Source: an uncultured Porphyromonadaceae bacterium
Lineage (GTDB): Bacteria; Bacteroidota; Bacteroidia; Bacteroidales; Muribaculaceae
Assembly: GCA_946553045.1 (NCBI GenBank)
Contig: CAMNRO010000002.1
Coordinates: 1 to 64,000, forward strand
Length of the DNA stretch: 64,000 nucleotides
Reading direction: 5' to 3'
The position numbers and the translations under genes were made by a program. Below, one piece after another: positions 42,956 through 55,955 of the stretch. The stretch's first letter is position 1, and each line of letters starts with the position of its first letter. The notes beneath the pieces were generated by a model. It did not search any database. It was not told the origin of the DNA and was given only the letters and a program-made list of their open reading frames with translations.

Positions 42956-44095
42956 TCAGTTTGCGGCCTGGCGCATTTCGCTTTTCTTTGCAGGCTGAGC
43001 CGGTTCTATACCGAGCCAGCGGGCGCCGGGAATGAAGGCGAGTATGCGTGCTGTGAGCCAGCAAGACAGGAACGTGCACAGGGCAATGGCCGGAATGGCG
43101 AGTGCCGTAGGCTGCTGCATGTCGAATTTGAGGATACCGACCCAGAAACCGAGCCAGAAGATGTGCATCAGATAGATGGCGTAGCTCAGTCGCGAGAGGT
43201 CGGTGATGGCAGCGGGTGCCTTGTCCATGCTGATGGTGCTGAACATGAGGAATGCGCCGGTGGTGAGCACGAAGACATTGAGGGTGCAGAACGACCAGCC
43301 GACTTCGAGGGTCGGGGTGTCGAGGAGGGTTTCGGGAACAGCCTGCACGTAGAACGACCATATTGTCGCGGCTGCGCCGGCAATGAGCATAGGCAGTCCG
43401 ACGGCAATGCGGCGTGCGCGGCTCCAGGTGAGGTGGGTGCGTATGTAGTGCGCGGTCACTACGTAGCCGAGATAGCCGGCGAAATACCACAGCATGTGGT
43501 AGCCGTTCCAGAAGCATTCGCCCCATATTTCGCCGAACCAGCGGTTAAGGAATGGCATACATGTGGATATGGCGAAAAGGGCTATAAAGAATTTTTCTTC
43601 CTGCGCGGTGGCCTTGCGCAGCCATGGAGAAATCATCGGAGTGAAGAGGTAGATGCTTATGAGAGGATACATGAACCAGAGATGGCCTGCCAGAGAGGGG
43701 AAGTTGAGCGGTATGCGCGAGAGGTCGTTGATTGCGGTGGCGCTGTCTATCTGGCCCCAGAGCAGGGGCAGTGTGCTGTAGAGAATCATGAAGATGATGA
43801 ACGGCGGCAGAATGCGCATGAAGCGTTTGCGGTAGAAATCCCACATAGACACCGATTCTTTCATCGGCACAAGCAGATATGCCGATACTATTATGAACAG
43901 GGGCACCGACATGCGCGAGAAGCCGTCGTAGAGCGACACCCACAGGCGGTCGGTCTCATTGGCGAGCCATGATACCGGGCCGGCCATTTCGCCGGGGTTG
44001 GGTGCGCCGTAGTAGTTTTCACTGGCATGGACCAGTATGACGAGAAAACATGCGAAAACACGCACAAAGTCAAGAAATACGATTCGTTGTTTCAT
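42956..44095 (-). CDS. Acyltransferase 3 family membrane protein
   Basis: The 379-residue integral membrane protein has about ten helices. The family motif near residues 10-25 (FVRVFACFLVILVHASENYY, with the catalytic-type His) is present. The later PLFIIVSAYLLVP and RFMRILPPFIIFM are typical of acyltransferase 3. It transfers an acyl group to an exported sugar or lipid; the acceptor is unknown. It stands alone. A -7-like box (TATTTTTG on the minus strand, 44119-44112) lies 16 nt upstream of the start. Confidence 0.88.
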   Translation of the reverse strand: MKQRIVFLDFVRVFACFLVILVHASENYYGAPNPGEMAGPVSWLANETDRLWVSLYDGFSRMSVPLFIIVSAYLLVPMKESVSMWDFYRKRFMRILPPFIIFMILYSTLPLLWGQIDSATAINDLSRIPLNFPSLAGHLWFMYPLISIYLFTPMISPWLRKATAQEEKFFIALFAISTCMPFLNRWFGEIWGECFWNGYHMLWYFAGYLGYVVTAHYIRTHLTWSRARRIAVGLPMLIAGAAATIWSFYVQAVPETLLDTPTLEVGWSFCTLNVFVLTTGAFLMFSTISMDKAPAAITDLSRLSYAIYLMHIFWLGFWVGILKFDMQQPTALAIPAIALCTFLSCWLTARILAFIPGARWLGIEPAQPAKKSEMRQAAN

Positions 44096-44171
44096 TTTTG
44101 CTTATTTTTTGCAAAAATAATAAAAATAGGAGCGGCAGAAGTTTTCGCGTTTGCCAAATCTGTAAAAAGAA

Positions 44172-44202
44172 CCGGCCCGGAGTCACGAGGACTTCGGGCC
44201 GG
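44172..44202 (-). terminator. Terminator of the B12-locus transcript
   Basis: CCGGCCCG (44172-44179) pairs with CGGGCCGG (44195-44202), with inner pairs. On the minus strand it is followed by TTCTTTTT. It lies 24 nt after the DUF5074 gene. Confidence 0.85.
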
Positions 44203-44226
44203 CAGAGGAAACAGACACTCTCTAAG

Positions 44227-45591
44227 CTATTTTATCATTATCTTGCGTGTGGATTTGCCTGTTCGTTCGATATAGATGCCGGGCGCGGCTGTCTGCCTGT
44301 CGATGCGTCGGCCCTGGAGGTCGAAGTATTCTGTAATACCGCCAGTGTTGTCGACAGTGGGCAGTCTCACCGCCGTGGTCTTGCTTTGCGGGAATACCGG
44401 CAGGGAGGGAAACCAGTAGTTCGATATCATCGGGTATTCAGCGATGAGGGTGCCCGTGTTGCCGTAGCGGCGCAAAGCGTAGGTCGGGTCCTGGAAATCG
44501 TGGTAGACCGACATGTATATCTCGTCGGTCTCGGGGTGCAGACGCATGGAGCAGCCGTATATCTTCCAGTTGTCGGGGTCTTCGCCGAGGTCGATTATAC
44601 GGGTGCATTCGTCGGTGTCGATATCGTAGCGGAACACATATTTGCCGTCGAACCATGTGTTGGCTCCGCCTTTCCAGTAGAGTGTGTTTTCGATTTCGGA
44701 GGCGCAGAAGGCGTCGGGCGTCCATGCATACCATGAGTTCGAGGGGCCGTAAACACCTTCGGGCAGCGGCACCACGCTGTAGTCGAGCGAAACGGGGTCT
44801 ATCCGCAGCAGATATGGCAGTGCGGAGCCACGGCCGTCGGTTCCTCCGGCGATGCTTGTCCACAGGTTTCCGTCGGCGCCGAGCACAACCGAGCCTATTC
44901 CGGCGCCTTTCTCGACCACATCCATGCTTATGACATCGGTGACCTCATCGGTGGCGGTGTCTATCACCAGCAGGCCTTCCGACTGATGGGCCGCGAATAC
45001 ACGGCCTGCGGCAAGAACCATTGTGCCGCACTGGCCGCTGTAGAGCGAGCCGCTCGAATCGATGTTGGGCTTGCCGTCGCTGCCGTTGGGATTTTCGGAT
45101 CCTTTCACCTTTTCGGTGATTTCGATTCTGTCGAGGTCGAGGACCCAGATACCGTTGGAGGTCGACACATAGCCTTTGGAGGCCGAAATGCCGACGAAGC
45201 CGCGTCCGTCGCACTGCGAGCCGTCGGTGCTTATGTTTTCGAGCTGCTTTATAATCTTCATCGTAGAGGCGTCGGCCACTGTTATGCGTCCGCCTGCTAT
45301 GGAAGCGCCTCCGTCTTTAGCCTGTTTTGCAATGAAATAGAAGCGGCCGTTCCAGATGGCTCCGAACTGGTTGGTGCAGCCCAGTTCCTTTCCAGGATTT
45401 TCGGTCTGAATCACTCGGTAGTGCCAGCAATCGCCGTCGGGAGCGTCGGGCAGTATATAGTTCACGGTCGAGTTCTGGTGTCCGTACCAGTCCTCGTTTA
45501 CAATAAATACGCCTTGCGTATAATCAATTCCCGCCGCCTGCACGGCCAAAGCCGCACAGGAAGCGAGAACGAACGAAAAGAGTTTCTTCAT
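44227..45591 (-). CDS. DUF5074-type beta-propeller with sorting-type C-terminus
   Basis: The 454-residue secreted protein has a signal peptide (KLFSFVLASCAALAVQA) and a propeller of repeated blades. The blade start GVFIVNEDWYGHQNSTVNY, QCGTMVLAAGRVFAAHQSEG and LLVIDTATDEV are DUF5074-like. The C-terminal tail (YFDLQGRRIDR...PGIYIERTGKSTRKIMIK) resembles type IX secretion/gliding sorting domains. I start it at ATG 45591, which overlaps the LRR-protein stop by 4 nt. No lipobox. It is the last gene of the cobalamin locus. DUF5074 proteins and BtuG are both propellers, but cobalamin binding by this one is not shown by sequence. Confidence 0.8.
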   Translation of the reverse strand: MKKLFSFVLASCAALAVQAAGIDYTQGVFIVNEDWYGHQNSTVNYILPDAPDGDCWHYRVIQTENPGKELGCTNQFGAIWNGRFYFIAKQAKDGGASIAGGRITVADASTMKIIKQLENISTDGSQCDGRGFVGISASKGYVSTSNGIWVLDLDRIEITEKVKGSENPNGSDGKPNIDSSGSLYSGQCGTMVLAAGRVFAAHQSEGLLVIDTATDEVTDVISMDVVEKGAGIGSVVLGADGNLWTSIAGGTDGRGSALPYLLRIDPVSLDYSVVPLPEGVYGPSNSWYAWTPDAFCASEIENTLYWKGGANTWFDGKYVFRYDIDTDECTRIIDLGEDPDNWKIYGCSMRLHPETDEIYMSVYHDFQDPTYALRRYGNTGTLIAEYPMISNYWFPSLPVFPQSKTTAVRLPTVDNTGGITEYFDLQGRRIDRQTAAPGIYIERTGKSTRKIMIK

Positions 45592-48500
45592 CGTATAATG
45601 ATTTTGCATGTTTTGCCCTCGGCACGGAACAGATATATGCCTGCCGGGAGAGAAGCACGGGCATCGGCGAGAGATATGCCGGAGGCCATGCGCAGGCCGC
45701 TCGTGCTGTAGATGTCGCCGGTTGTGTCGGCTGAAAGCTCAGGAGCTGAAATACCGGTCGAGACGGGGGTGTTGAAAGCTACCGGGGCAGCGTTGAAATC
45801 GTTGCCGTTGTGGGTGGTCTTCAGCGACATGCTGTATTCGCTGTTGTCGCTCAGACCTTCTACTTCGACGCTGAATGTGCCGTCGGCATTCGGCTTTATG
45901 TCGCCGGAAGCGGTGCTGCGCGATATACCGTCGATTGTAAAGGTGATTTCAGAGTTTTTGAGCACATAGGCTGTGTTTGCGCTTTCGAAGCGGGCCGGAA
46001 GTGCCTCCATGTCGTAGCCAATATTCACGCGGCCGGTGATAATGTGACTGTCGCCACTGTGTTCTACGCCGGTAATGACGGCATTTACCACTGTGATTGC
46101 CGGCGCGGTGATGGCCGATTTCTTCCAGTAGCTGCTTTTTGCCATGTATGCTTCGGAAGTTCCGGTCGGCACCACTACAGGAAGGTAAGGACCGTTGTAG
46201 CCGCTAGAAGAGAATGTCGTGCCGGATATATTTATAGGTTCGGGATTGCACATGTAGAATGTGGCATTGGCGTTTTTCTGTGCCAGATAGATTCCGAGAG
46301 TGCTTACCGAAGCCGGAATCACTATTTCGTTTATTATCGTATTAGCAAATGCATATTGCTGGATTGCAGTGACGCTCTCGGGTATATCGATATCGCTGAT
46401 TGCTGTCTGGTATAGAGAATATCCGCCAAGAGTCTTCAGTCCTTGAGGCAAAATGATTTGCTTGAGATTAGGGCAACCGGTGATGGTATAGTTCTGAAGA
46501 GTGACTGTGTTTGACGGCACCTTGAATACACCCGGCTGTGCGCTATCTTCTTCGCCGATGAAGGCTATGGTTTCGAGTGCGGCGCAGTTGCGGAAAATCT
46601 GTGTTCCGTTCAGGTTGACGTCCGGGCTCATGGTCACTTTCCTGAGGGCAGAGCAGCCATAGAAAAGTGAGCCGCTGATGGTCTTTACGGCTTCGGGAAG
46701 ACGGATTTCAGAAAGACCTGTGCAACCGCTGAATGCCGACGAGCCTATGGTCGATACCGATTCGGGAATATTGATTTCGGTGAGTTTCTGGCATGAAGCG
46801 AAGGCGTTGTTGCCAATAGAAGTCACATTGGCGGGTATGCTTATCGCGGTGAGCGAAGTGCATTTGTTGAAAGTATAGTTGGGTATGCTCTTGAGCTGCG
46901 ATGGCAGTTTCACGCTCTTGAGTGCCGCGCAATTGTCGAAGACATATGCGCCTATTGAGGTGACGCTTTCCGGGATTTCTATGCATTCAAGCGATTTGGC
47001 GTAGCAGAACAGATTGTTGGGCAGCGAAGTAAGTCCGGCCGGAAGATTTATGCTTCTGAGGGCGCTGTTGTAGTAGAAAGCGCGCTCGCCAAGCGACTTG
47101 AGGCCTTCGGGGAGAACGATGCTTTCGAGCGACCCGATATTTGCGAATGCATAATTGCCGATAGACTCTACGGTTGACGGTATGGTGACAGCGGCAAGCG
47201 CAGTGCAGTTGTCGAATGAGTTCTTGGGAATAGATGTGATTCCCTCGGGCAGCACGACGGCGGTGAGGGCGGAGGCCCCGAAGAATGTGCTGTCGTTCAT
47301 CGCTGTTACATTGAATGTCAGATTCTGATACTGTACGGTCGGAGCGACAGATACAGCACCTATGTAGCCTGCTTTGTTGGCTGCCATTATAGATGTGCGG
47401 TCTGCCTTGCCCTCGACGCGTTTATAGGTGAGAACAACTTCGTTTTTGTCGCCGGTAGCGGTGACGCGGAACGATGCGCCGTTCATGTCGAAGAGGTCGC
47501 CCACATGTACGGCCATTGTGTATTCGGCCATGTTGCTGAAATTTTTCCAGCCGTTTGCCCGGGCATAGGTGTCGGTATAGCCAACGGGGACGGTCAGAGT
47601 GGCCGAGGCGTAGGTGTCTGCGTCGAAGCAGTCGTCGGTAATGGCAGGGCATATTGTTGTTTCAACTTTGACACTGCTCAGGGCGGGGCATTCGGCAAAT
47701 GCGCCTGAGGCTATTGTCTTTACCGAGGCAGGGATTGTTACATCGGTGAGGGCTTCGTTGGCGGCGAAGCACATTTCTCCGATTTCAGTGACCCATTCGG
47801 GCACGGAGACCTCGCTGATAGCTGTGCCCGAGAATGTGGCTGCCCCCAGCACGCTTATCTGCTTTGAGAAAAGCGGCTCAGAGATGGCTGTGTAGCAGAA
47901 GGCGCGTTCGCCTATTTTCTTGAGCTGGTCGGCTGAGCCTTTGTCTGCGAATTTCAGTGTCGACAGGCCTGTGGCCGAGAATGCGTCGTCGCCGATTTCG
48001 GTTACGGTCTCGGGCAGGGTGATTTCTGTAATGCCCGAGGCGGCGAAGGCGGCATCGGCAATGCCGACAACGGTATATTCGATGTCTTCGAATGTGAATT
48101 TAGCCGGAATGGTGATGTTGCCGGCGTATTCTTCGAGGGTCTCGCCTTCCATCTCTACGGGCGCGCATACCAAGACAGTCTTGGAGTTGTAGCTCTTAAG
48201 AGAGTAGTATATGCCGTCGTGCTTGAACAGAGTTCTGGCACCTTCGGGGATTGTTGAGGGAGCGGCTACGAAAGTCTTCCAGTTGCCATATACCATGTTT
48301 CGGGAGAAGTTCCAGCCGTCCCATGAGTTGTTGTTCAGTACACGGCCCGAAACTCCTATATTGGAATAGCTGAAAGACTTGTCTTCGCTTTCTTTGGTCC
48401 AGTACGACCAATAGCTTTGATACCAGCCGGAGCCCCAGAAATCGTCGCTGTCAAGAGCTGTCCAGTCGTCATAATCATACGAAGGGCTTCCTCCCTGTCC

Positions 48501-49049
48501 GGGCTTGTAGCCGTCGGGGTGTTCGACGAATCCTGTCTCGGTGGTGAATGTCTGCGAGCCGTTGGAAAGGCGTATGTCACCGTCGTCATCGGCATCCCAG
48601 CCCAGGCCGCCGACCACATAGCCGCCGTTGGGGTCAGTAGGCGATGAGACGTTGGTGTATTCCAGGAGCGCATACAGGCGCGGATTGGCTTCAACTATGG
48701 CTTTGACCATGTCTACGCCCGTAGCCTTGCCATCCCAGCGGTAGCCGAATACGAGGGCGTTTTTCTCGCGTTCGTCGTTGAACTGTATTACGAGTGCGGC
48801 GCGGTTTTCTCCTTCGCCGGCCCACGATTCAATCATGTCGAATGTGAAATTTCCGTCGGGAACGCCGAGGTCTCCGGGGTCGGAGGCCGGTGCGATGGCG
48901 GGTGCCTTGGCTTGCTTTGCGGCCGGCAGTGTAGAGGCGTAGTCTATGCCCTGCACCGTGCGCGGAAGGCTTTTCGGAGCTGTGCCGTCGGCATAGGCGA
49001 GAGAGCCTATGGAAGCTGCCGCGGCAAGGGTCAGTAAGGTCTTTTTCAT
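45588..49049 (-). CDS. Giant BspA-type leucine-rich-repeat surface protein
   Basis: The 1153-residue secreted protein has a signal peptide (residues 1-20) and an N-terminal domain of about 250 residues, rich in Trp, Tyr and Asp, with ALVFGYRWDG and DADDDGDIRLSNG. Two blocks of LRR_5/BspA repeats (at least 15 units of the form xxIxIPxSVTSIGxxAFxxC) follow. A region of about 200 residues and a C-terminal sorting-like tail (LPAGIYLFRAEGKTCKIIIR) end it. It lies 136 nt after the third lipoprotein gene. I start it at ATG 49049. No lipobox. BspA repeats mediate adhesion in other bacteria; a role in B12 capture is untested. Confidence 0.85.
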   Translation of the reverse strand: MKKTLLTLAAAASIGSLAYADGTAPKSLPRTVQGIDYASTLPAAKQAKAPAIAPASDPGDLGVPDGNFTFDMIESWAGEGENRAALVIQFNDEREKNALVFGYRWDGKATGVDMVKAIVEANPRLYALLEYTNVSSPTDPNGGYVVGGLGWDADDDGDIRLSNGSQTFTTETGFVEHPDGYKPGQGGSPSYDYDDWTALDSDDFWGSGWYQSYWSYWTKESEDKSFSYSNIGVSGRVLNNNSWDGWNFSRNMVYGNWKTFVAAPSTIPEGARTLFKHDGIYYSLKSYNSKTVLVCAPVEMEGETLEEYAGNITIPAKFTFEDIEYTVVGIADAAFAASGITEITLPETVTEIGDDAFSATGLSTLKFADKGSADQLKKIGERAFCYTAISEPLFSKQISVLGAATFSGTAISEVSVPEWVTEIGEMCFAANEALTDVTIPASVKTIASGAFAECPALSSVKVETTICPAITDDCFDADTYASATLTVPVGYTDTYARANGWKNFSNMAEYTMAVHVGDLFDMNGASFRVTATGDKNEVVLTYKRVEGKADRTSIMAANKAGYIGAVSVAPTVQYQNLTFNVTAMNDSTFFGASALTAVVLPEGITSIPKNSFDNCTALAAVTIPSTVESIGNYAFANIGSLESIVLPEGLKSLGERAFYYNSALRSINLPAGLTSLPNNLFCYAKSLECIEIPESVTSIGAYVFDNCAALKSVKLPSQLKSIPNYTFNKCTSLTAISIPANVTSIGNNAFASCQKLTEINIPESVSTIGSSAFSGCTGLSEIRLPEAVKTISGSLFYGCSALRKVTMSPDVNLNGTQIFRNCAALETIAFIGEEDSAQPGVFKVPSNTVTLQNYTITGCPNLKQIILPQGLKTLGGYSLYQTAISDIDIPESVTAIQQYAFANTIINEIVIPASVSTLGIYLAQKNANATFYMCNPEPINISGTTFSSSGYNGPYLPVVVPTGTSEAYMAKSSYWKKSAITAPAITVVNAVITGVEHSGDSHIITGRVNIGYDMEALPARFESANTAYVLKNSEITFTIDGISRSTASGDIKPNADGTFSVEVEGLSDNSEYSMSLKTTHNGNDFNAAPVAFNTPVSTGISAPELSADTTGDIYSTSGLRMASGISLADARASLPAGIYLFRAEGKTCKIIIR

Positions 49050-49119
49050 GTTCTGTGATGTGTTGGTCTGTCGTTGATAAGGGTATGACAATGGCCGTCG
49101 GAGCCGTGGCCCGGCAGTC

Positions 49120-49131
49120 TGCAGTACTGCA
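49120..49131. other. 12-nt palindrome in the gap before the LRR gene
   Basis: TGCAGTACTGCA is perfectly self-complementary. It lies in the 136-nt gap between the third lipoprotein gene and the LRR gene. No -7 box was seen in the gap, so whether the last two genes have their own promoter is open. Confidence 0.35.
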
Positions 49132-49185
49132 TGAGGCCTTGATTCCGTGGTCTTTGTGCTTTTTTATGTTTTAGAACGCTTACAT

Positions 49186-50385
49186 TTATTCTGGTATATG
49201 GAGGTCCTGGGCCCGGCATATTTCAGTCGAGGTTTCGCCAATCCAGCCGCAATACTGGTTGACGCCCGTATATACTCGCACGAAGTCTGCTCCGGGCAGC
49301 CCGACGGGATTGCCGTCGGCATCTACGGCCCATGATATGTCGAATGAATTAAGGTCGGCCTCCTCGTTGGGGTGATTGTCGGCATATCCCCACGCATAGC
49401 TGTAGAGCACATAGTAGCTGCCGTTGCCTGAAATGTCTACGGCATTAGGCGCCAGAAGAGTGCCGGTGAATGACATGCTGTTTTCGGCAATCCACCTGGG
49501 ATAATAGTCCTGCGGGTGAAATGCGTTTTTGGGCATGAAGCCCGATTCTCCGTCGTAGTCCGACCAGGCAATGTAGCACATGTCGGTCAGCATTCCGTCG
49601 GCGCCCGGCTGCGGAGTGTGGTCGGGAGCGGGGCGCTCGTAGGTAATGGTGTAGTTGTGTCTGGTTGAAGGCGAGCTGTATTCGCTTCCGGCAAGCTCAT
49701 ACCAGGGGTCATCGGGCAGACCGTTGCAATTGGCATCGTAGCTCACCATGACGATTCCCGGTTCGCACGAACCGCCTTTTTTCTCGGGCTGGAGGAGCTC
49801 GTAGAAGCAGTTGCCCCATATGCGGAAGTCGCGTTGACCGGGGATATTCACCACCGTATGGTCGAATCCGAATGTCACGTAGCCGCCGAAACCACCGAGA
49901 GATATGAGCACATCGTTTTTGCCCGAAATGGATTCTTCGGCCTTGCGGACCATGTCGGCCTCGCTGTCGCCTTCCTCGTATTTTGGCATTTCGTTGATGA
50001 ACTGGCCAGGAGCGGGGCGGTATTCATAGACCCGCGATATATAGGGGCTGTATTCCACTTCTTCGTGGAGCACGTTGACAGTGAGGTCAAAGTGATAGGG
50101 TGTTTCGGGGTCGATGATATCGAAGCTCAGGGTATAGCTTCCTTCTTCGGCCGCAATAAATACATAGTCTTTGGCCGTCGAAACTACCGACTGCGAGCCG
50201 TCGGGCATGGTGAGTGTCCAGCGGTATGATTCGCCGGTAAGCATCGGCGACAGTGGCAGCTTCTGCATGCGGGCTATGCGGTAGACGGGCTCGAGGCCGA
50301 GGCCGACGGTCGAGATTTCGTCGGTGCACGCAGAAAGTATTGCGGCAATGCCTATGAGGGCGTATTTAAGGTATCTGGCAATCAT
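49186..50385 (-). CDS. PKD-like surface lipoprotein in the B12 locus
   Basis: The 399-residue protein has lipobox AAILSA-C (residue about 20). An Ig/PKD-like domain covers about 40-110 (YRWTLTMPDGSQSVVS...GSYTLSFDIID). A C-terminal beta-rich domain follows, with acidic loops (SYDANCNGLPDDPWYELAGSE contains a calcium-like D-x-N-x-N pattern; WSDYDGESGFMPKNAF). Genes of this kind are often found beside btuB/btuG in Bacteroides. It could correspond functionally to a further B12-capture lipoprotein such as BtuH, but I did not recognise a specific match. It starts 2 nt after the BtuG-like gene stop. Confidence 0.75.
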   Translation of the reverse strand: MIARYLKYALIGIAAILSACTDEISTVGLGLEPVYRIARMQKLPLSPMLTGESYRWTLTMPDGSQSVVSTAKDYVFIAAEEGSYTLSFDIIDPETPYHFDLTVNVLHEEVEYSPYISRVYEYRPAPGQFINEMPKYEEGDSEADMVRKAEESISGKNDVLISLGGFGGYVTFGFDHTVVNIPGQRDFRIWGNCFYELLQPEKKGGSCEPGIVMVSYDANCNGLPDDPWYELAGSEYSSPSTRHNYTITYERPAPDHTPQPGADGMLTDMCYIAWSDYDGESGFMPKNAFHPQDYYPRWIAENSMSFTGTLLAPNAVDISGNGSYYVLYSYAWGYADNHPNEEADLNSFDISWAVDADGNPVGLPGADFVRVYTGVNQYCGWIGETSTEICRAQDLHIPE

Positions 50386-50387
50386 AC

Positions 50388-51536
50388 TTATTCATTCAGG
50401 AAAGCGATATGGGCCGGAATATCGCCGGTGCGGACGCTCCACTTGCGGCGTCCCTTGCGGTCGAAGCAGTAGAGTGTGCCCGATGAAACATAGTTTTTGG
50501 CGTCGGTTACAAAAATATCTCCCGTTTCGGGGTGTATTGCAATTCCGTAAGGAATGCTTATGTCTTTGTCGGAGCCGTCGGTGATGAAATTGTCGGACAC
50601 GCGCTCTTTGGTGCGGATGTCGACAATGCCATATGTGATGGTGTTCGACTGGGTGTAGTTGTTCCATTCGGTGGCATAGTAGAAGAGCGAGTCGCCGCGG
50701 AATGCCATGTTGGAGCATGCGATGTCGAGGGTGTCGCTGACAATCATGCGGTTATAGCCCCTTTTTTTTTCGAGCACATAAAGGCGCGAGGGGCGCGTAT
50801 GGTAGTCGCCGCGCGATGTCACCCACAGTTTGCCGTAGCGGTCTTTTTTTATGCGGTGCAGGTTTATGCCCACCGGAATCTGCTGGATTTGCTTGAAGTC
50901 GATCATCTCGATTACCGATACGGTGTTGTCGTAGTTGGGAGCGCGGTAGCCGCCCGAGTTGGCAACATACATATAGTCGTCTGCAATTACCATCTCTTCG
51001 GGCTGGTAGCCGACCGTAACCTTGCGTGTAACGGCGAGAGAGGCGGTGTCGACCTCATAGACGGCGCCTTTGGGAGCGTTCGGGTCTATCATCACCGGGC
51101 CGACGTAGGAGCTGACGTAAGCCTTGCCTCGGTGGAAGCGCACGTAGCGGCAGTTTGGAATGTCAATCTGGCCTATGCGGACTCCTGTGCGGGCGTCCAT
51201 CACCTCGACTTTGTGCGAGCAGTTGACGGCAACATACAGCTTGGAGCCGTAGATGCCGATGTCGTTGCCCACGTCGCCGAGTTCCTTTATTATCGACGGA
51301 TTGCGCTCGGCATAGAAATTTCGGGCGTAGAGCCCTGTCTGATAGTCGTAATAGTCGAGTGTGCATTTGTTCGAACCCATATTCCCTTCGTTGACAAGGT
51401 AAAATCCGCGCACCGACGTGGAGGCGGGAATGTCGCCGACGATGTCGTACTCCGTCGGCACCACGAGTTCGTCTTCTCGACAACTCGTGGCGACCAGCAG
51501 GAGCGGCAGAAAAATATATGTTATTGTTCGAAACAT
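50388..51536 (-). CDS. btuG: BtuG-like beta-propeller lipoprotein
   Basis: Predicted to bind cobalamin at the cell surface and pass it to BtuB. The 382-residue protein has lipobox LLLVATS-C (about residue 19). A seven-bladed YncE-like propeller follows (FYLVNEGNMGSNKCTLDYYDY, KLYVAVNCSHKVEVMD, DYMYVANSGG, ETGDIFVTDAKNYV). The placement directly after a btuB-like gene under a cobalamin riboswitch matches BtuG of Bacteroides thetaiotaomicron, which binds B12 with very high affinity. The symbol rests on fold and context, not on alignment. It starts 8 nt after the btuB stop. Confidence 0.82.
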   Translation of the reverse strand: MFRTITYIFLPLLLVATSCREDELVVPTEYDIVGDIPASTSVRGFYLVNEGNMGSNKCTLDYYDYQTGLYARNFYAERNPSIIKELGDVGNDIGIYGSKLYVAVNCSHKVEVMDARTGVRIGQIDIPNCRYVRFHRGKAYVSSYVGPVMIDPNAPKGAVYEVDTASLAVTRKVTVGYQPEEMVIADDYMYVANSGGYRAPNYDNTVSVIEMIDFKQIQQIPVGINLHRIKKDRYGKLWVTSRGDYHTRPSRLYVLEKKRGYNRMIVSDTLDIACSNMAFRGDSLFYYATEWNNYTQSNTITYGIVDIRTKERVSDNFITDGSDKDISIPYGIAIHPETGDIFVTDAKNYVSSGTLYCFDRKGRRKWSVRTGDIPAHIAFLNE

Positions 51537-51544
51537 CGTGTGTG

Positions 51545-53530
51545 TCAGATTTCTACGGTGATGGTGAAACGGTAGTTGCGTTTTGGCATCGGGTAGTTAA
51601 TGATTACGTCGTAGTCCTGATTGAGGAGGTTGTTTATTTCGGCCATTGCACGGGCTTTCACGCGTCCGAAGCGGAAGTCGCGGCTGATGGATATATCGCT
51701 CGTGTACCATGGCTGGGTATAGTTGTAGGCTATGTTTTCCTGCTGGTTATATCGCTCCCCGACATACATATAGCTGTAGTTGAGGCCCCAGCCGCGCCAT
51801 GCGGCGTTGAGCACGGCCGAGCCGGAATGATGAGGTATGTAGGGTATCTGGTGACGATAGTAGTTGTCGGCGGGATTGGTGATGTCGATGGCTTTCTGGT
51901 ATGTGTACTGGCCGCGGAAAGTCAGCTCAAGAACGTCGACAGGGTTGATGGTTACCGATGCGGTGGCGTCTATGCCTCTGATGTCTACGACTCCGAGATT
52001 GAGCATTGTCCAGCGGAACTGCTGCCCTTTGGGGTAGGCTACAATCTTGTCTTTTACCTTATTGTAGTATGCATCGAGGTTCAGGTTCACGGCCCGGACG
52101 GTGCGTGATGGTGTGAAAGCGAGCTGTGCGCCGAGGTTATATTGGGTCACGTGTTCGGGTGAGAGTTTGGAGTTGCCCATGTCGGCGTAGTAGAGGTCGT
52201 TGAAGGTCGGCATTCTGAACGATTTTTTGTAGAATGCTCTCAGATTGAGCCAGCCGGCCCGGAGTGGCTGCCCCGAGACATAGACCGCCGGTGTGAACAC
52301 GTGTTTGTCGGCCGGAGACTCCTGGCCGCGCAGATTGTCGTGTATGAATGTCATCAGGCCGCTGGCCTGCACGCGGAAGCGGCCCAGGTCGAGAGCCGTT
52401 GCCGCCGAGACAAGATTGGAAAAGCGGTCGGGCTTGGCAAAACCTGTCATGTCGGCGTTCATGGTGTTCCACTGGAAGTCGTAGCTCGCCGATGCCCACC
52501 ATTTGTCGGTGATGGTGAAGAGGTTTGCGGTAGAGAAATATAGCTCGCGCTGACGGTAGAGATTGTCGATTTTCACCTGGCGGTCGTCGTTGTTCACATA
52601 GTGCGTGCGGTAGAAGGCGTATTTGGCGTTTGCAAGCGTGCTCCATCGTCCGGCGGTGTGTGTGTAGCTGCCTTGGGCGAATGTGTTGTTGTCGCCTATG
52701 CGCTCGCCGCGGCGCCATACGTTGTTTACAATCGCTCCGGGCACGCCGCGCTCCGACGTATAGTTGTAGACTTTGAAGCGCCAGTCGCCGGTAGTGGTTG
52801 TGCCGTTGAGGTTCAGCTCGGTGCGGAGTGCGTTGATGTCGCCGTTCTGACGCACGGCCGTGGTGTCGTATGCTATTTCGCCTGCGGGGTTCACACGCCG
52901 GTAGCGGAATTTGTATTTGCCTGTCGATGTGAGGTATTCGGCACTTAGCGAGGCGCTTACTTTAGGCGATAGGCGTACTTCCACGAGGGCCGACGGGTTT
53001 ATGAGGTCGAAAGAGCCGAAGCGCACGGTGCCGCGGGCGTGGTATGTTTCGCCTTCGCTGAAACGCGGTGCTCGGGTGCGCATATATACCGTCGCTGCGC
53101 TGCCGAAGTCGCGCGCGGGCTGGAGGAGGGCGCTCCTCTGGCCGTTGTGCAGCGACAGGGCCTCGACGTTGTCGAGCGAGAACTGGCCGAGGTCTATCTG
53201 GCCGTTCTGGGCGTTGCCGAGGGCTACACCGTCGTAGACTACGCCGGTATGGTTTGTGCCCATGGAGCGGACGTTGATGGTTTTGATGCCGCCTACGCCG
53301 CCGTAGTCTTTCACCTGAACGCCGGCGAAGTATCGGAGCGCGTCTGCCACGCTGTTGCTATTGAGGCGGCGCAGGTCCTCGCCACGGAGTGTCTGTACGG
53401 GAATGGTCTGGCGAGTGGCTTTGCGCCCTTGCACGGTAACTTCCGACAGAGATATTGTGTCGGCGGTCTCTTCGGCCGTCGAATTGAGTGATATTATGGC
53501 TATAAGTGCTGTTAGGAGCGCTTTTTTCAT
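51545..53530 (-). CDS. btuB: TonB-dependent cobalamin receptor
   Basis: Outer-membrane gated porin that imports cobalamin. The 661-residue protein has a signal peptide (ends LNSTA), a TonB-box-like DTISLSEVTVQG, a plug domain (about 40-150, with RYFAGVQVKDYGGVGG and NVRSMGTNHTGVVYDG) and a 22-strand-type barrel. I start it at ATG 53530 (MKKALLT). The frame to 53563 adds residues without signal character. An AAAGGAA ribosome-binding-like site precedes it. Its leader of about 335 nt carries a cobalamin riboswitch, which is the main support for naming it btuB. Confidence 0.92.
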   Translation of the reverse strand: MKKALLTALIAIISLNSTAEETADTISLSEVTVQGRKATRQTIPVQTLRGEDLRRLNSNSVADALRYFAGVQVKDYGGVGGIKTINVRSMGTNHTGVVYDGVALGNAQNGQIDLGQFSLDNVEALSLHNGQRSALLQPARDFGSAATVYMRTRAPRFSEGETYHARGTVRFGSFDLINPSALVEVRLSPKVSASLSAEYLTSTGKYKFRYRRVNPAGEIAYDTTAVRQNGDINALRTELNLNGTTTTGDWRFKVYNYTSERGVPGAIVNNVWRRGERIGDNNTFAQGSYTHTAGRWSTLANAKYAFYRTHYVNNDDRQVKIDNLYRQRELYFSTANLFTITDKWWASASYDFQWNTMNADMTGFAKPDRFSNLVSAATALDLGRFRVQASGLMTFIHDNLRGQESPADKHVFTPAVYVSGQPLRAGWLNLRAFYKKSFRMPTFNDLYYADMGNSKLSPEHVTQYNLGAQLAFTPSRTVRAVNLNLDAYYNKVKDKIVAYPKGQQFRWTMLNLGVVDIRGIDATASVTINPVDVLELTFRGQYTYQKAIDITNPADNYYRHQIPYIPHHSGSAVLNAAWRGWGLNYSYMYVGERYNQQENIAYNYTQPWYTSDISISRDFRFGRVKARAMAEINNLLNQDYDVIINYPMPKRNYRFTITVEI

Positions 53531-53679
53531 TTTTTCCTTTACAAGAATGGTTGTATATGCCATTTGACGAGCAGGCCGTCAAGGAAAAAATGTCGGTTAT
53601 AGGCGCATGAGGCAAGCGAATACCCGCAGGGTATGGCCTCCGTTGCTGTCCGACGCTCGTCCTCGCAAGCTTTTTCGGC

Positions 53680-53868
53680 AGATGGGGTCAACGGCAGGTC
53701 TTCTGACTTGTTCCGGCTCGGAGCGGCGCCTTCCCCGGTAGAAACTAATCCGAGTGGCATGTGCCGGTAGCCTTTGTGGAACTTACAGCAGCGGGACTGT
53801 CCGGGATTTTCACCCGATTCCCTTTTAAGCAGGCGCCCTTTATGAGGCAGGACGCAAGCACCGTTTTC
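53680..53868 (-). promoter_or_regulatory. Cobalamin riboswitch
   Basis: On the minus strand the conserved aptamer elements appear in order: AAAAGGGAATCGGGTGAAAA, then CCCGGACAGTCCCGCTGCTG, TGTAAG, the J-type GCCACTCGG, GGGGAAGGC and the B12-box-like AGTCAGAAGACCTGCC. The aptamer begins at the predicted transcription start and ends about 150 nt before btuB. Between them lies GGCCATACCCTGCGGGTATT and a GACGGCC/CTCGTC-like fold that may form the expression platform. It predicts repression of the locus when cobalamin is abundant. Confidence 0.95.
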
Positions 53869-53873
53869 CGGTG

Positions 53874-53905
53874 CAAATGTACGGAGTTTGTGCCAATGCA
53901 GCAAA
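53874..53905 (-). promoter_or_regulatory. Promoter of the cobalamin-uptake locus
   Basis: Minus strand: TTTG (53905-53902), 20 nt, TACATTTG (53881-53874): an exact consensus match, placing the RNA start at the first base of the aptamer. It is divergent from the fbp -7 box at 53923-53930. Confidence 0.88.
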
Positions 53906-53922
53906 CAATATCGGAAAAATAT

Positions 53923-53930
53923 TATCTTTG
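53923..53930 (+). promoter_or_regulatory. -7 box of fbp
   Basis: TATCTTTG followed by C, 15 nt before the fbp start. The -33 is unclear. Confidence 0.5.
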
Positions 53931-53945
53931 CATTCCCAAACAACT

Positions 53946-55955
53946 ATGACTATGTCCGCAAACTCATGTGAAATAAATAAGATAGAGGCTGACCGCCGTG
54001 TTCTTGAGCTTCTTGCCCAGACTTTTCCGAATGTATCGGCTGCCAGCTCCGAAATAATGAACCTCGAGGCTATTCTCAGCCTTCCGAAAGGAACCGAGCA
54101 CTTTGTAGCCGACCTTCACGGTGAATACGAGGCTTTTCACCATATTCTGCGCAATGCTTCGGGCAATATCCGCCGCAAGGTGACCGAGGCGTTCGGCAAT
54201 GCGCTCCGTGAATCGGAGATTCGACGTCTGTGTTCGCTCATTTATTATCCGGAGCGTAAGCTCGAGCTCATCAAAAACGAGGAGTCTTCGCTTTCCGATT
54301 TCTATCGTGTGACGCTCAACCAGCTTACGACGGTGTGCCGGTCGGTGTCGTCGAAATACACGCGTTCGAAGGTGCGCAAGACTCTTCCACAGGAATACGC
54401 ATATATTATAGAGGAGTTGCTTCATGAGTCGCCTTCCGATGACAACAAGCAGGATTATTTCAACCGTATCATCGATACGATTATCACGACGGGGCAAGCC
54501 GACGCGTTTATTGTGGCGATATGCAATGTGATTCAGAAGCTGAGCATCGACCAGCTTCATATTCTGGGCGATGTCTACGACCGCGGCCCCGGCGCTCACC
54601 TTATCATGAACATGCTGTGCGGCTATGGGGCTTTCGATATCCAGTGGGGCAACCACGATGCGCTGTGGATGGGAGCTTGCGCCGGAAATGCCTGCTGCAT
54701 GGCAAATGTGCTGCGTCTGTCTCTGCGCTATGGCAATATGGCGACTCTCGAAGACGGCTACGGAATAAATCTGGTGCCTCTGGCTACTTTTGCCATGGAG
54801 ACTTATGGCGATGACCCGTGCACCGATTTCGGGCCGAAGGTAGAGGAAGGCGACGAAGCGCGATATAGCGAGAAAACGCTGCGTCTGCTTGCCCGGATGC
54901 ACAAGGCTATCAGTATAGTGCAGTTCAAGCTCGAAGGTGCGATGATCGGGCGGCACCCGGAGTGGAAGATGGACGACAGACGCCTGCTTGAGCATATCGA
55001 CACCGTGCGTGGCGTGATGGCCGTGGACGGCAGGGAATATGAGCTGAAGGATTCATTTTTCCCTACTCTCAATCCGGCCGACCCCTATGCGCTTACTGCC
55101 GAAGAGCAGGAACTTGTCGATAAGCTCATGCATTCATTCCATATGAGTACGCGGCTTCGCAAACATGTGAACTGTCTTCTGTCGAGCGGCTGTCTGTTCG
55201 GTATCTACAATAACAATCTGCTTTTCCACGCTTCGGTTCCGCTCAACGACGACGGAACTCTCAAGGAGGTTGAGCTGCTGGGCCGGCGATACAGCGGCCG
55301 CGAATTGTTTACACGCACGGGGCTGCTGATGCGCGAGGCTTTCAACGACGATACTCCCGACGATGAGCGCCGCTATGCCATCGATTATTACTGGTATCTG
55401 TGGTGTGGCCCCGATTCGCTGCTTTTCGACAAGAGCAAGATGGCTACTTTCGAGCGTTATTTCCTGACCGACCATGAGACTCACCGCGAGGAAAAGGGCA
55501 ATTACTATCGTCTGCGCGACGACGAGGCTGTGGTAGACCGCATTCTCGATGCTTTCGGCGTCGAAGGGCCACACCGTCATATCATCAACGGTCATGTGCC
55601 GGTGAAGACCGGCAAGGGAGAGTCGCCTATAAAGGCCGGGGGCAAGCTGATGGTGATAGACGGCGGTTTTTCGAAGGCTTATCACAAGACAACCGGCATT
55701 GCCGGATATACGCTCGTGTTCCACAGCCGAGGTTTTCAGCTGGTGCAGCACGAGCCTTTCACATCGGCTGAAGACGCCGTGCTGAACGGCACCGACATTG
55801 TGAGCACCACCCAGATTGTGGAACTGAGCCAGCGCCGCATGCGGGTGCGCGACACCGACAAGGGCAAGGAGCTCCAGTCGCAGATCAACGAGCTGATGGA
55901 ACTCCTCGTCGCCTTCCGCCACGGTCTCATCAAAGAGTACACTTCGCGCCGATAG
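53946..55955 (+). CDS. fbp: Fructose-1,6-bisphosphatase, class III
   Basis: Makes fructose-6-phosphate in gluconeogenesis. The 669-residue protein belongs to the Firmicutes/Bacteroidetes class III with a calcineurin-like metallophosphatase core. Metal-binding motifs VADLHGEYEAF, ILGDVYDRGPGAH and WGNHDALWMGA are visible, with HIINGHVPVKTGKGESP further on. The start is at ATG 53946, because the longer frame would begin inside the riboswitch promoter and code for poor-quality sequence. A second ATG lies at 53952. Confidence 0.96.
   Translation: MTMSANSCEINKIEADRRVLELLAQTFPNVSAASSEIMNLEAILSLPKGTEHFVADLHGEYEAFHHILRNASGNIRRKVTEAFGNALRESEIRRLCSLIYYPERKLELIKNEESSLSDFYRVTLNQLTTVCRSVSSKYTRSKVRKTLPQEYAYIIEELLHESPSDDNKQDYFNRIIDTIITTGQADAFIVAICNVIQKLSIDQLHILGDVYDRGPGAHLIMNMLCGYGAFDIQWGNHDALWMGACAGNACCMANVLRLSLRYGNMATLEDGYGINLVPLATFAMETYGDDPCTDFGPKVEEGDEARYSEKTLRLLARMHKAISIVQFKLEGAMIGRHPEWKMDDRRLLEHIDTVRGVMAVDGREYELKDSFFPTLNPADPYALTAEEQELVDKLMHSFHMSTRLRKHVNCLLSSGCLFGIYNNNLLFHASVPLNDDGTLKEVELLGRRYSGRELFTRTGLLMREAFNDDTPDDERRYAIDYYWYLWCGPDSLLFDKSKMATFERYFLTDHETHREEKGNYYRLRDDEAVVDRILDAFGVEGPHRHIINGHVPVKTGKGESPIKAGGKLMVIDGGFSKAYHKTTGIAGYTLVFHSRGFQLVQHEPFTSAEDAVLNGTDIVSTTQIVELSQRRMRVRDTDKGKELQSQINELMELLVAFRHGLIKEYTSRR

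Follow-up and report, generated by a model that had tools for sequence, protein, structure and literature searches.

We analyzed 64,000 nt of DNA from an uncultured Porphyromonadaceae bacterium (Muribaculaceae; assembly GCA_946553045.1, contig CAMNRO010000002.1), referred to here in its full length as the window, and focused on a five-gene locus at positions 44227 to 53905. This locus is probably a btuB-btuG-btuH operon that begins with a riboswitch and has gained two further proteins, for which export by the type IX secretion system (T9SS) is likely. In the first of these, one domain has a predicted fold like that of the vitamin B12-gripping beta-domain that human intrinsic factor and transcobalamin share, and this protein would be an extracellular corrinoid binder. 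A first-pass annotation of the same sequence had placed a giant leucine-rich-repeat (LRR) protein and a second propeller beside the B12 genes and suggested that they capture corrinoids at the cell surface or attach cells to a host glycoprotein. The association with B12 genes stood, while the LRR, found in few related loci, did not hold as the core element.

All elements of the locus lie on the minus strand, where the first-pass annotation had put them. The gene order, 5' to 3', is btuB, btuG, btuH, the LRR protein, and the DUF5074 propeller. Successive genes are separated by 8, 2, and 136 nt, and the LRR and propeller genes overlap by 4 nt (ATGA). These coordinates and gaps, the protein lengths, the promoter, the complete aptamer, and the terminator after the last gene were all borne out. 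The features are as follows.

53874..53905, minus strand: Bacteroidetes-type promoter, TTTG-N20-TACATTTG, by pattern search; the sole match of the pattern within 44227-53905
53676..53880, minus strand: cobalamin riboswitch aptamer, RF00174, 102.7 bits (gathering score, 31.5), full model (1-189)
51545..53530, minus strand: btuB, TonB-dependent receptor, Plug and barrel Pfam families above cutoffs
50388..51536, minus strand: btuG, lipoprotein beta-propeller lid, by PDB matches, with lipobox LLVATSC by eye
49186..50385, minus strand: btuH, lipoprotein with a weak PKD-like N terminus and a cobalamin-binding BtuH domain
45588..49049, minus strand: 1,153-residue protein with signal peptide, beta-domain-like domain, BspA LRR, and sorting-type tail
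48300..48866, minus strand: transcobalamin/intrinsic-factor beta-domain-like core of that protein (residues 62-250), by structure model
46536..47357, minus strand: its main BspA-type LRR stretch, residues about 565-838 by PDB LRR matches (PF13306, 9.7e-113; 4fs7, 9.9e-56)
45591..45761, minus strand: its C-terminal sorting-type tail (residues 1097-1153), tail profile E of 1.5e-6
44227..45591, minus strand: second DUF5074 beta-propeller, 454 residues, with signal peptide and sorting-type tail (residues 403-454); PF16819, 389 bits; tail E of 2.4e-15
44164..44203, minus strand: intrinsic terminator after the last gene, GC stem at 44203-44171, then U-rich UCUUUUU; fold z of -3.9

The first three genes appear to form the known capture set BtuB, BtuG, and BtuH, as judged from profile and structure-database matches. 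The btuB frame is open from 53563, and the ATG at 53530 (before MKKALL) is the preferred start; the best NCBIfam match of the product was TIGR01779 at 101 bits, under the equivalog cutoff of 599.7. BtuG matched 8blw chain B (8.2e-41), 8ptf/8ptd (3.4e-39), and 3dsm (1.4e-14). Residues 113 to 397 of the third product (50049-49195) matched 8blw chain B in its C-terminal part at 1.3e-74 and 7biz at 1.7e-48. We take 8blw chain B (663 residues) to be a BtuG-BtuH fusion because its N-terminal half matches the window BtuG, and 3dsm and 7biz are given as apo-BtuG2 and BtuH2 in PMC10404256. The BtuG label of the first-pass annotation therefore remains, with BtuB as a probable assignment, while its PKD-like label for the third gene gives way to btuH (PKD_3 reached 18.9 bits, under the cutoff of 26.3). 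Both BtuG and BtuH bear lipoboxes by eye.

The last protein served as query against 198 genomes from the same family, of which 148 matched at an E value of 0.001, some of the weak ones via the C-terminal tail only. Sixty regions were fetched, 59 from relatives and one holding the second riboswitch of the window's own genome. We counted the 47 loci in which the last gene scored above 390 bits and left out 13 (L076 and L084-L095) as own-genome, weak, or short-contig (L091). Strong last-gene matches outside this count were G140 (L091, a 5.3-kb contig), G075, G070, and G134. Since loci were chosen by the last gene, its presence in them is a selection criterion. All three of btuB, btuG, and btuH were found together in 41 of the 47 loci (in L072, btuB stands last), and 41 also had an upstream riboswitch on the same strand. 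Five of the six loci lacking one hit a contig edge before the expected site, and L082 has a whole btuB with no match. In L083 and L081, the riboswitch lies directly before the extra genes, with no btuBGH in the stretch examined.

The N-terminal domain of the window's LRR protein was present in 40 of the 47 loci and the LRR in 8, and in 37 the middle protein had an extra propeller. Middle proteins come as the domain alone (about 320 residues; a stand-alone form lies at L040:8571-9554), domain plus propeller (about 1,270 residues), domain plus LRR (the window, L044, and L050), or a combination of domain, LRR, and propeller (up to about 2,100 residues). The LRR was rejected as a conserved B12 element on the basis of those 8 loci. 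By these counts the conserved element is the N-terminal domain, with the LRR as a variable insert. In five loci (L048, L071, L075, L080, and L085), the last propeller gene is immediately followed by one for a giant protein of 1,060 to 1,254 residues with a weak BtuH match; three of these are open at the end of the stretch.

The last two genes could instead form a separate unit behind btuBGH, driven by a B12-independent promoter of their own, which we consider improbable. The 136-nt gap would suit such a unit, being larger than that of all relatives with btuH except L068, and sigma-70-like matches occur within genes on the minus strand, e.g., at 49439-49411 in btuH and 44621-44594 in the propeller gene (14 matches against 7.8 expected on both strands of 43500-54500). 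Both observations count against a single transcript. Counted from first possible starts, however, btuH overlaps the next gene or lies within 70 nt of it in 41 of the 44 relatives with btuH, the exceptions being L068 (326 nt), L078 (99 nt), and L082 (82 nt). The gap itself held no terminator-like match on the minus strand by a simple scan (fold z of -1.3), and neither the gap nor the rest of the gene block held a promoter by the search with the Bacteroidetes consensus pattern. As the first-pass annotation had proposed, the last two genes thus appear to belong with the B12 genes; the pattern search gave them no promoter of their own, and the association recurs in related genomes.

The structure of the N-terminal domain was modeled from a 92-row alignment; an earlier model from 21 rows was poor (predicted local distance difference test score of 64) and was not used. 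The core elements of the model are E21-28, E38-44, H50-60, E64-71, E82-90 ... E143-146, E152-158, and E181-188. This is a beta-grasp core with a helix after strand 2 and then a beta-hairpin, which agrees with the definition of the transcobalamin-like clade. The model aligned with animal B12 carriers well above the other beta-grasp proteins compared, except for 3u7z. The domain is thus predicted, from the model, to fold like the beta-domain of human intrinsic factor and transcobalamin. Glycines 17, 19, and 41 occur in all rows and glycines 82, 87, and 89 in at least 91%, as candidates for the two conserved glycines of the SLBB superfamily. Aromatic positions are conserved as well, in the LRR protein W76, F101, Y103, W105, W205, W209, Y210, Y213, W214, and Y216. 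Pfam confirmed the BspA-like LRR_5 repeats (PF13306) in the 1,153-residue protein; its matches were to LRR-type and FNIP families, with no alpha/alpha barrel (toroid). In L040, L053, and L114, an aromatic stretch matched NF040672 (SCO2322 family) weakly and below threshold (E of 2e-4 to 9e-4).

Candidate families were also compared with the domain. BtuJ/DUF4465 was rejected, as DUF4465 was not among the families matched by any of the 92 rows. Homology to DUF4430 by profile was likewise rejected, with a nonsignificant hhalign E value of 0.16. A more recent Pfam entry, PF28005, appears among the precomputed annotations of 8 of 120 listed proteins and was not matched in any local Pfam scan; it may already cover the domain or its tail, at least in part. 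We found no description of the domain in B12 loci in the literature (titles and abstract starts; preprints and most subscription journals lay outside this scope).

An alignment-based scan of named genomes gave 69 domain loci. By title, these belong to Planctomycetota, Armatimonadota, Desulfobacterota, Verrucomicrobiota, Kiritimatiellota, Fibrobacterota, and Bacteroidota, the last including Bacteroides salyersiae (with an LRR form, L114), Parabacteroides faecis, Flavobacterium, Barnesiella, and Tannerella. An Rfam scan covered 44 of the 69, the remaining 25 being mostly Bacteroidales. In 41 of these 44, a B12-class riboswitch lies upstream of at least one domain copy on the same strand, within 535 nt in 17 loci and within 1.5 kb in 32; in L107 it precedes a second, weak copy only. 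The misses were L106, L122, and L158. The domain gene lies at the contig end in the last two, and L106 has a subthreshold 27-bit match about 1 kb upstream (contig matched by number). The scanned loci held 48 aptamers in 691,670 bases against about 0.5 expected from 35 of the organisms' genomes (91 matches in about 137 Mb by our own sums); some loci are near-copies of each other and do not represent independent occurrences.

Planctomycetota-type loci carry the domain without an LRR or propeller match, often as the first or second gene after the riboswitch. In five planctomycete loci (L102, L104, L109, L110, and L132), the order is riboswitch, pseudopilin-like gene, beta-domain gene, and PEP-CTERM-type protein; the pseudopilin-like gene of L102, the one tested, is DUF1559 by Pfam. 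P0120 is a 491-residue protein in which a beta-domain-like module is fused to a stretch with weak similarity to BtuH. This fusion, and the position behind B12 riboswitches without btuBGH nearby, suggest that the domain itself, rather than the LRR or propeller, concerns corrinoids. The PEP-CTERM-type neighbors could perhaps be related to BtuH, an unproven link that runs through P0120 only (hhalign probabilities of 76% and 93%); their PDB profile search was empty, and direct hhalign against BtuH gave an E value of 0.082 and a probability of 0.7%.

Other arrangements were seen among these loci. Three Bacteroidales contigs from RUG, reindeer, and sheep-rumen assemblies (L159, L161, and L164) have open reading frames (ORFs) of 1,324 to 1,352 residues with five domain-matching stretches each. 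In Desulfosarcina and on a deltaproteobacterial contig (L107:11407-11823 and L142:4139-4588), a c-di-GMP-I riboswitch and a cobalamin riboswitch adjoin each other close to beta-domain genes. Planctomycete DUF4430 genes (PF14478, 48.7 and 36.9 bits) stand beside TonB-receptor-like and CobN-like ORFs, labeled by eye, in L167 and L173.

These data also bear on the idea that the giant LRR protein takes hold of B12-binding glycoproteins from a host or of proteins that bear corrinoids, or that it anchors cells to them. A BspA-type LRR is indeed present, but it was not found in 39 of the 47 related loci, and the domain also occurs in Planctomycetota and Armatimonadota, on contigs with no animal host in their titles. 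Because the bacterium itself encodes an intrinsic-factor-like domain, attachment to a host glycoprotein is not needed to explain the gene, and we give this explanation hardly any credence.

The module may otherwise be coregulated with B12 uptake without binding corrinoids, serving in adhesion, as a scaffold, or in relation to vesicles, with the beta-grasp domain holding the BtuBGH complex or a glycan. Such a role fits LRR modules, which are typical protein-contact domains. It also fits BtuL of Bacteroides thetaiotaomicron (B. theta), described as a riboswitch-operon lipoprotein that does not bind cobalamin and promotes vesicle release (PMC12751083). Fold likeness shows no function. Nevertheless, Planctomycetota-type loci keep the domain behind B12 riboswitches without LRR or propeller, and among the beta-grasp proteins compared its predicted fold aligns best with B12 carriers, again excepting 3u7z. 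We regard a nonbinding role as unlikely.

Several points weigh against a transcobalamin-like domain that binds corrinoids. The chief one is that the fold and the regulator do not prove binding, as BtuL illustrates, and binding is putative. Foldseek with the domain model was nonsignificant, with streptococcal pilins on top (E of 0.15) and carriers from rank 3 at probabilities up to 0.80. PDB sequence searches with the domain gave nothing under an E value of 0.5, DUF4430 (PF14478) matched none of the 92 rows, the hhalign value given above was obtained against planctomycete DUF4430 domains, and P0120 had no PDB sequence match. The domain was found in 54 of the 198 family genomes and, within the genus of B. 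salyersiae, in 2 of 41; it is absent from most of those sampled. With regard to export, the window's own tails matched no named T9SS/NCBIfam sorting models, and the tail was found at an E value of 0.01 in just 2 of 11 LRR-labeled relatives.

Export of the LRR protein and the last propeller by T9SS is nonetheless likely from their sequence features. Unlike the lipobox-bearing BtuG and BtuH, both have plain signal peptides by eye, and both end in a tail recognized by a profile built from the tails of stand-alone domain proteins. At an E value of 0.01, this tail was found in none of 50 BtuG rows, none of 46 BtuB rows, and 1 of 55 BtuH-labeled rows from relatives. TIGR04183 matched in L116 (53.4 bits, cutoff of 23) and below the cutoff in L037 (19.6 bits). 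The genome encodes a PorU-type T9SS sortase (NF033707, 838 bits, cutoff of 420); a second match reached 376 bits, under the cutoff. The nearest solved relatives of the last propeller by sequence were 9s6c chains A and C (4e-9 to 8e-9).

In animal carriers, the beta-domain is one half of a clamp around cobalamin. We propose that when B12 is scarce, the riboswitch would permit a single five-gene transcript, and B12 capture and import through BtuB, BtuG, and BtuH would proceed as in Bacteroides. The beta-domain-like module, on an LRR stalk here or fused to a DUF5074 propeller in most relatives, would grip one side of the corrinoid. The propeller, in the same chain or as the last gene product, would be its clamp partner, like the alpha-barrel in animal carriers, and the load would be handed over to BtuH, BtuG, and BtuB.

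The operon type is already known. Bacteroides cobalamin uptake loci share the riboswitch, BtuB-type receptor, BtuG propeller lid, and BtuH lipoprotein in one operon; added here are the beta-domain-like module with an LRR or propeller, the second DUF5074 propeller, and the sorting-type tails. B. theta cobalamin loci are described as encoding BtuB, BtuG, and BtuH plus BtuJ, BtuK, BtuL, and BtuX (PMC10404256, PMC8941943, PMC12751083). G291, a genome that encodes a BtuGH fusion like that of B. theta together with a short BtuH, had no match to the domain, which is thus unlikely to be BtuK, BtuL, or BtuJ, whose sequences themselves were not compared. Animal carriers (intrinsic factor, transcobalamin, and haptocorrin) have an alpha/alpha barrel in the same chain, which Pfam did not find in the 1,153-residue protein; the bacterial core has an insert of about 50 residues (91-142 in our reading of the model), and no sequence similarity was detected. 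DUF4465/BtuJ is likewise secreted and, across many clades, associated with genes for B12 transport; in part it comes with C-terminal targeting motifs that we presume to be T9SS and PEP-CTERM. DUF4465, however, is a beta-jellyroll. This linkage and the motifs, as InterPro entries, are given in PMC13398666 and PMC12751083.

The transcobalamin-like clade of the SLBB superfamily, with DUF4430, shares the beta-grasp with a helix after strand 2 and then a beta-hairpin, is mostly secreted, and occurs in planctomycetes, whereas the present family is not recognized by DUF4430. Such bacterial domains were already predicted in 2007 in low-GC Gram-positives, planctomycetes, and euryarchaea, with Bacteroidetes not named in that account and the word riboswitch absent from its main text (Burroughs 2007, PMC1796856). 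What appears to be new is a sequence-distinct family that is linked to riboswitches across several phyla and that forms part of BtuBGH operons in Bacteroidota.

Some regulatory features were observed besides. Over the whole window (1-64000), the pattern TTTG-N17-23-TAnnTTTG had 7 matches against 0.69 expected. Between the riboswitch and btuB, a stem at 53528-53589 pairs UUUUUUCCUU with AAGGAAAAAA just 5' of the btuB ATG; it is a possible expression platform acting on translation (the 401-nt region folds at a z of -0.8). The terminator at 44203-44164 was absent from the output of the simple scan, and our guess is that a stem mismatch caused it to be passed over. The second cobalamin riboswitch of this genome (C31:23833-24018, or L076:9734-9919; 90 bits) lies directly 5' of a BtuG-like lipoprotein gene (400 residues), followed by ORFs of 177 and 642 residues.

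Competition for B12 in the gut is fierce, and the model studied is the B. theta set (BtuB, G, H, J, K, and L). We tentatively raise the possibility that bacteria of many phyla bear their own "intrinsic factor," in which a riboswitch-controlled, secreted beta-domain of the same fold as that of animal carriers clamps corrinoids against a partner domain, the DUF5074 propeller in Bacteroidota, and passes them to BtuH, BtuG, and BtuB. If true, this would add a further class of external B12 catchers, built on an unannotated conserved domain that stands behind B12 riboswitches in groups from Planctomycetota to Bacteroidota. Cobamide selectivity could then be tested on a small soluble domain, and the family would bear on the origin of the beta-domain of animal carriers.

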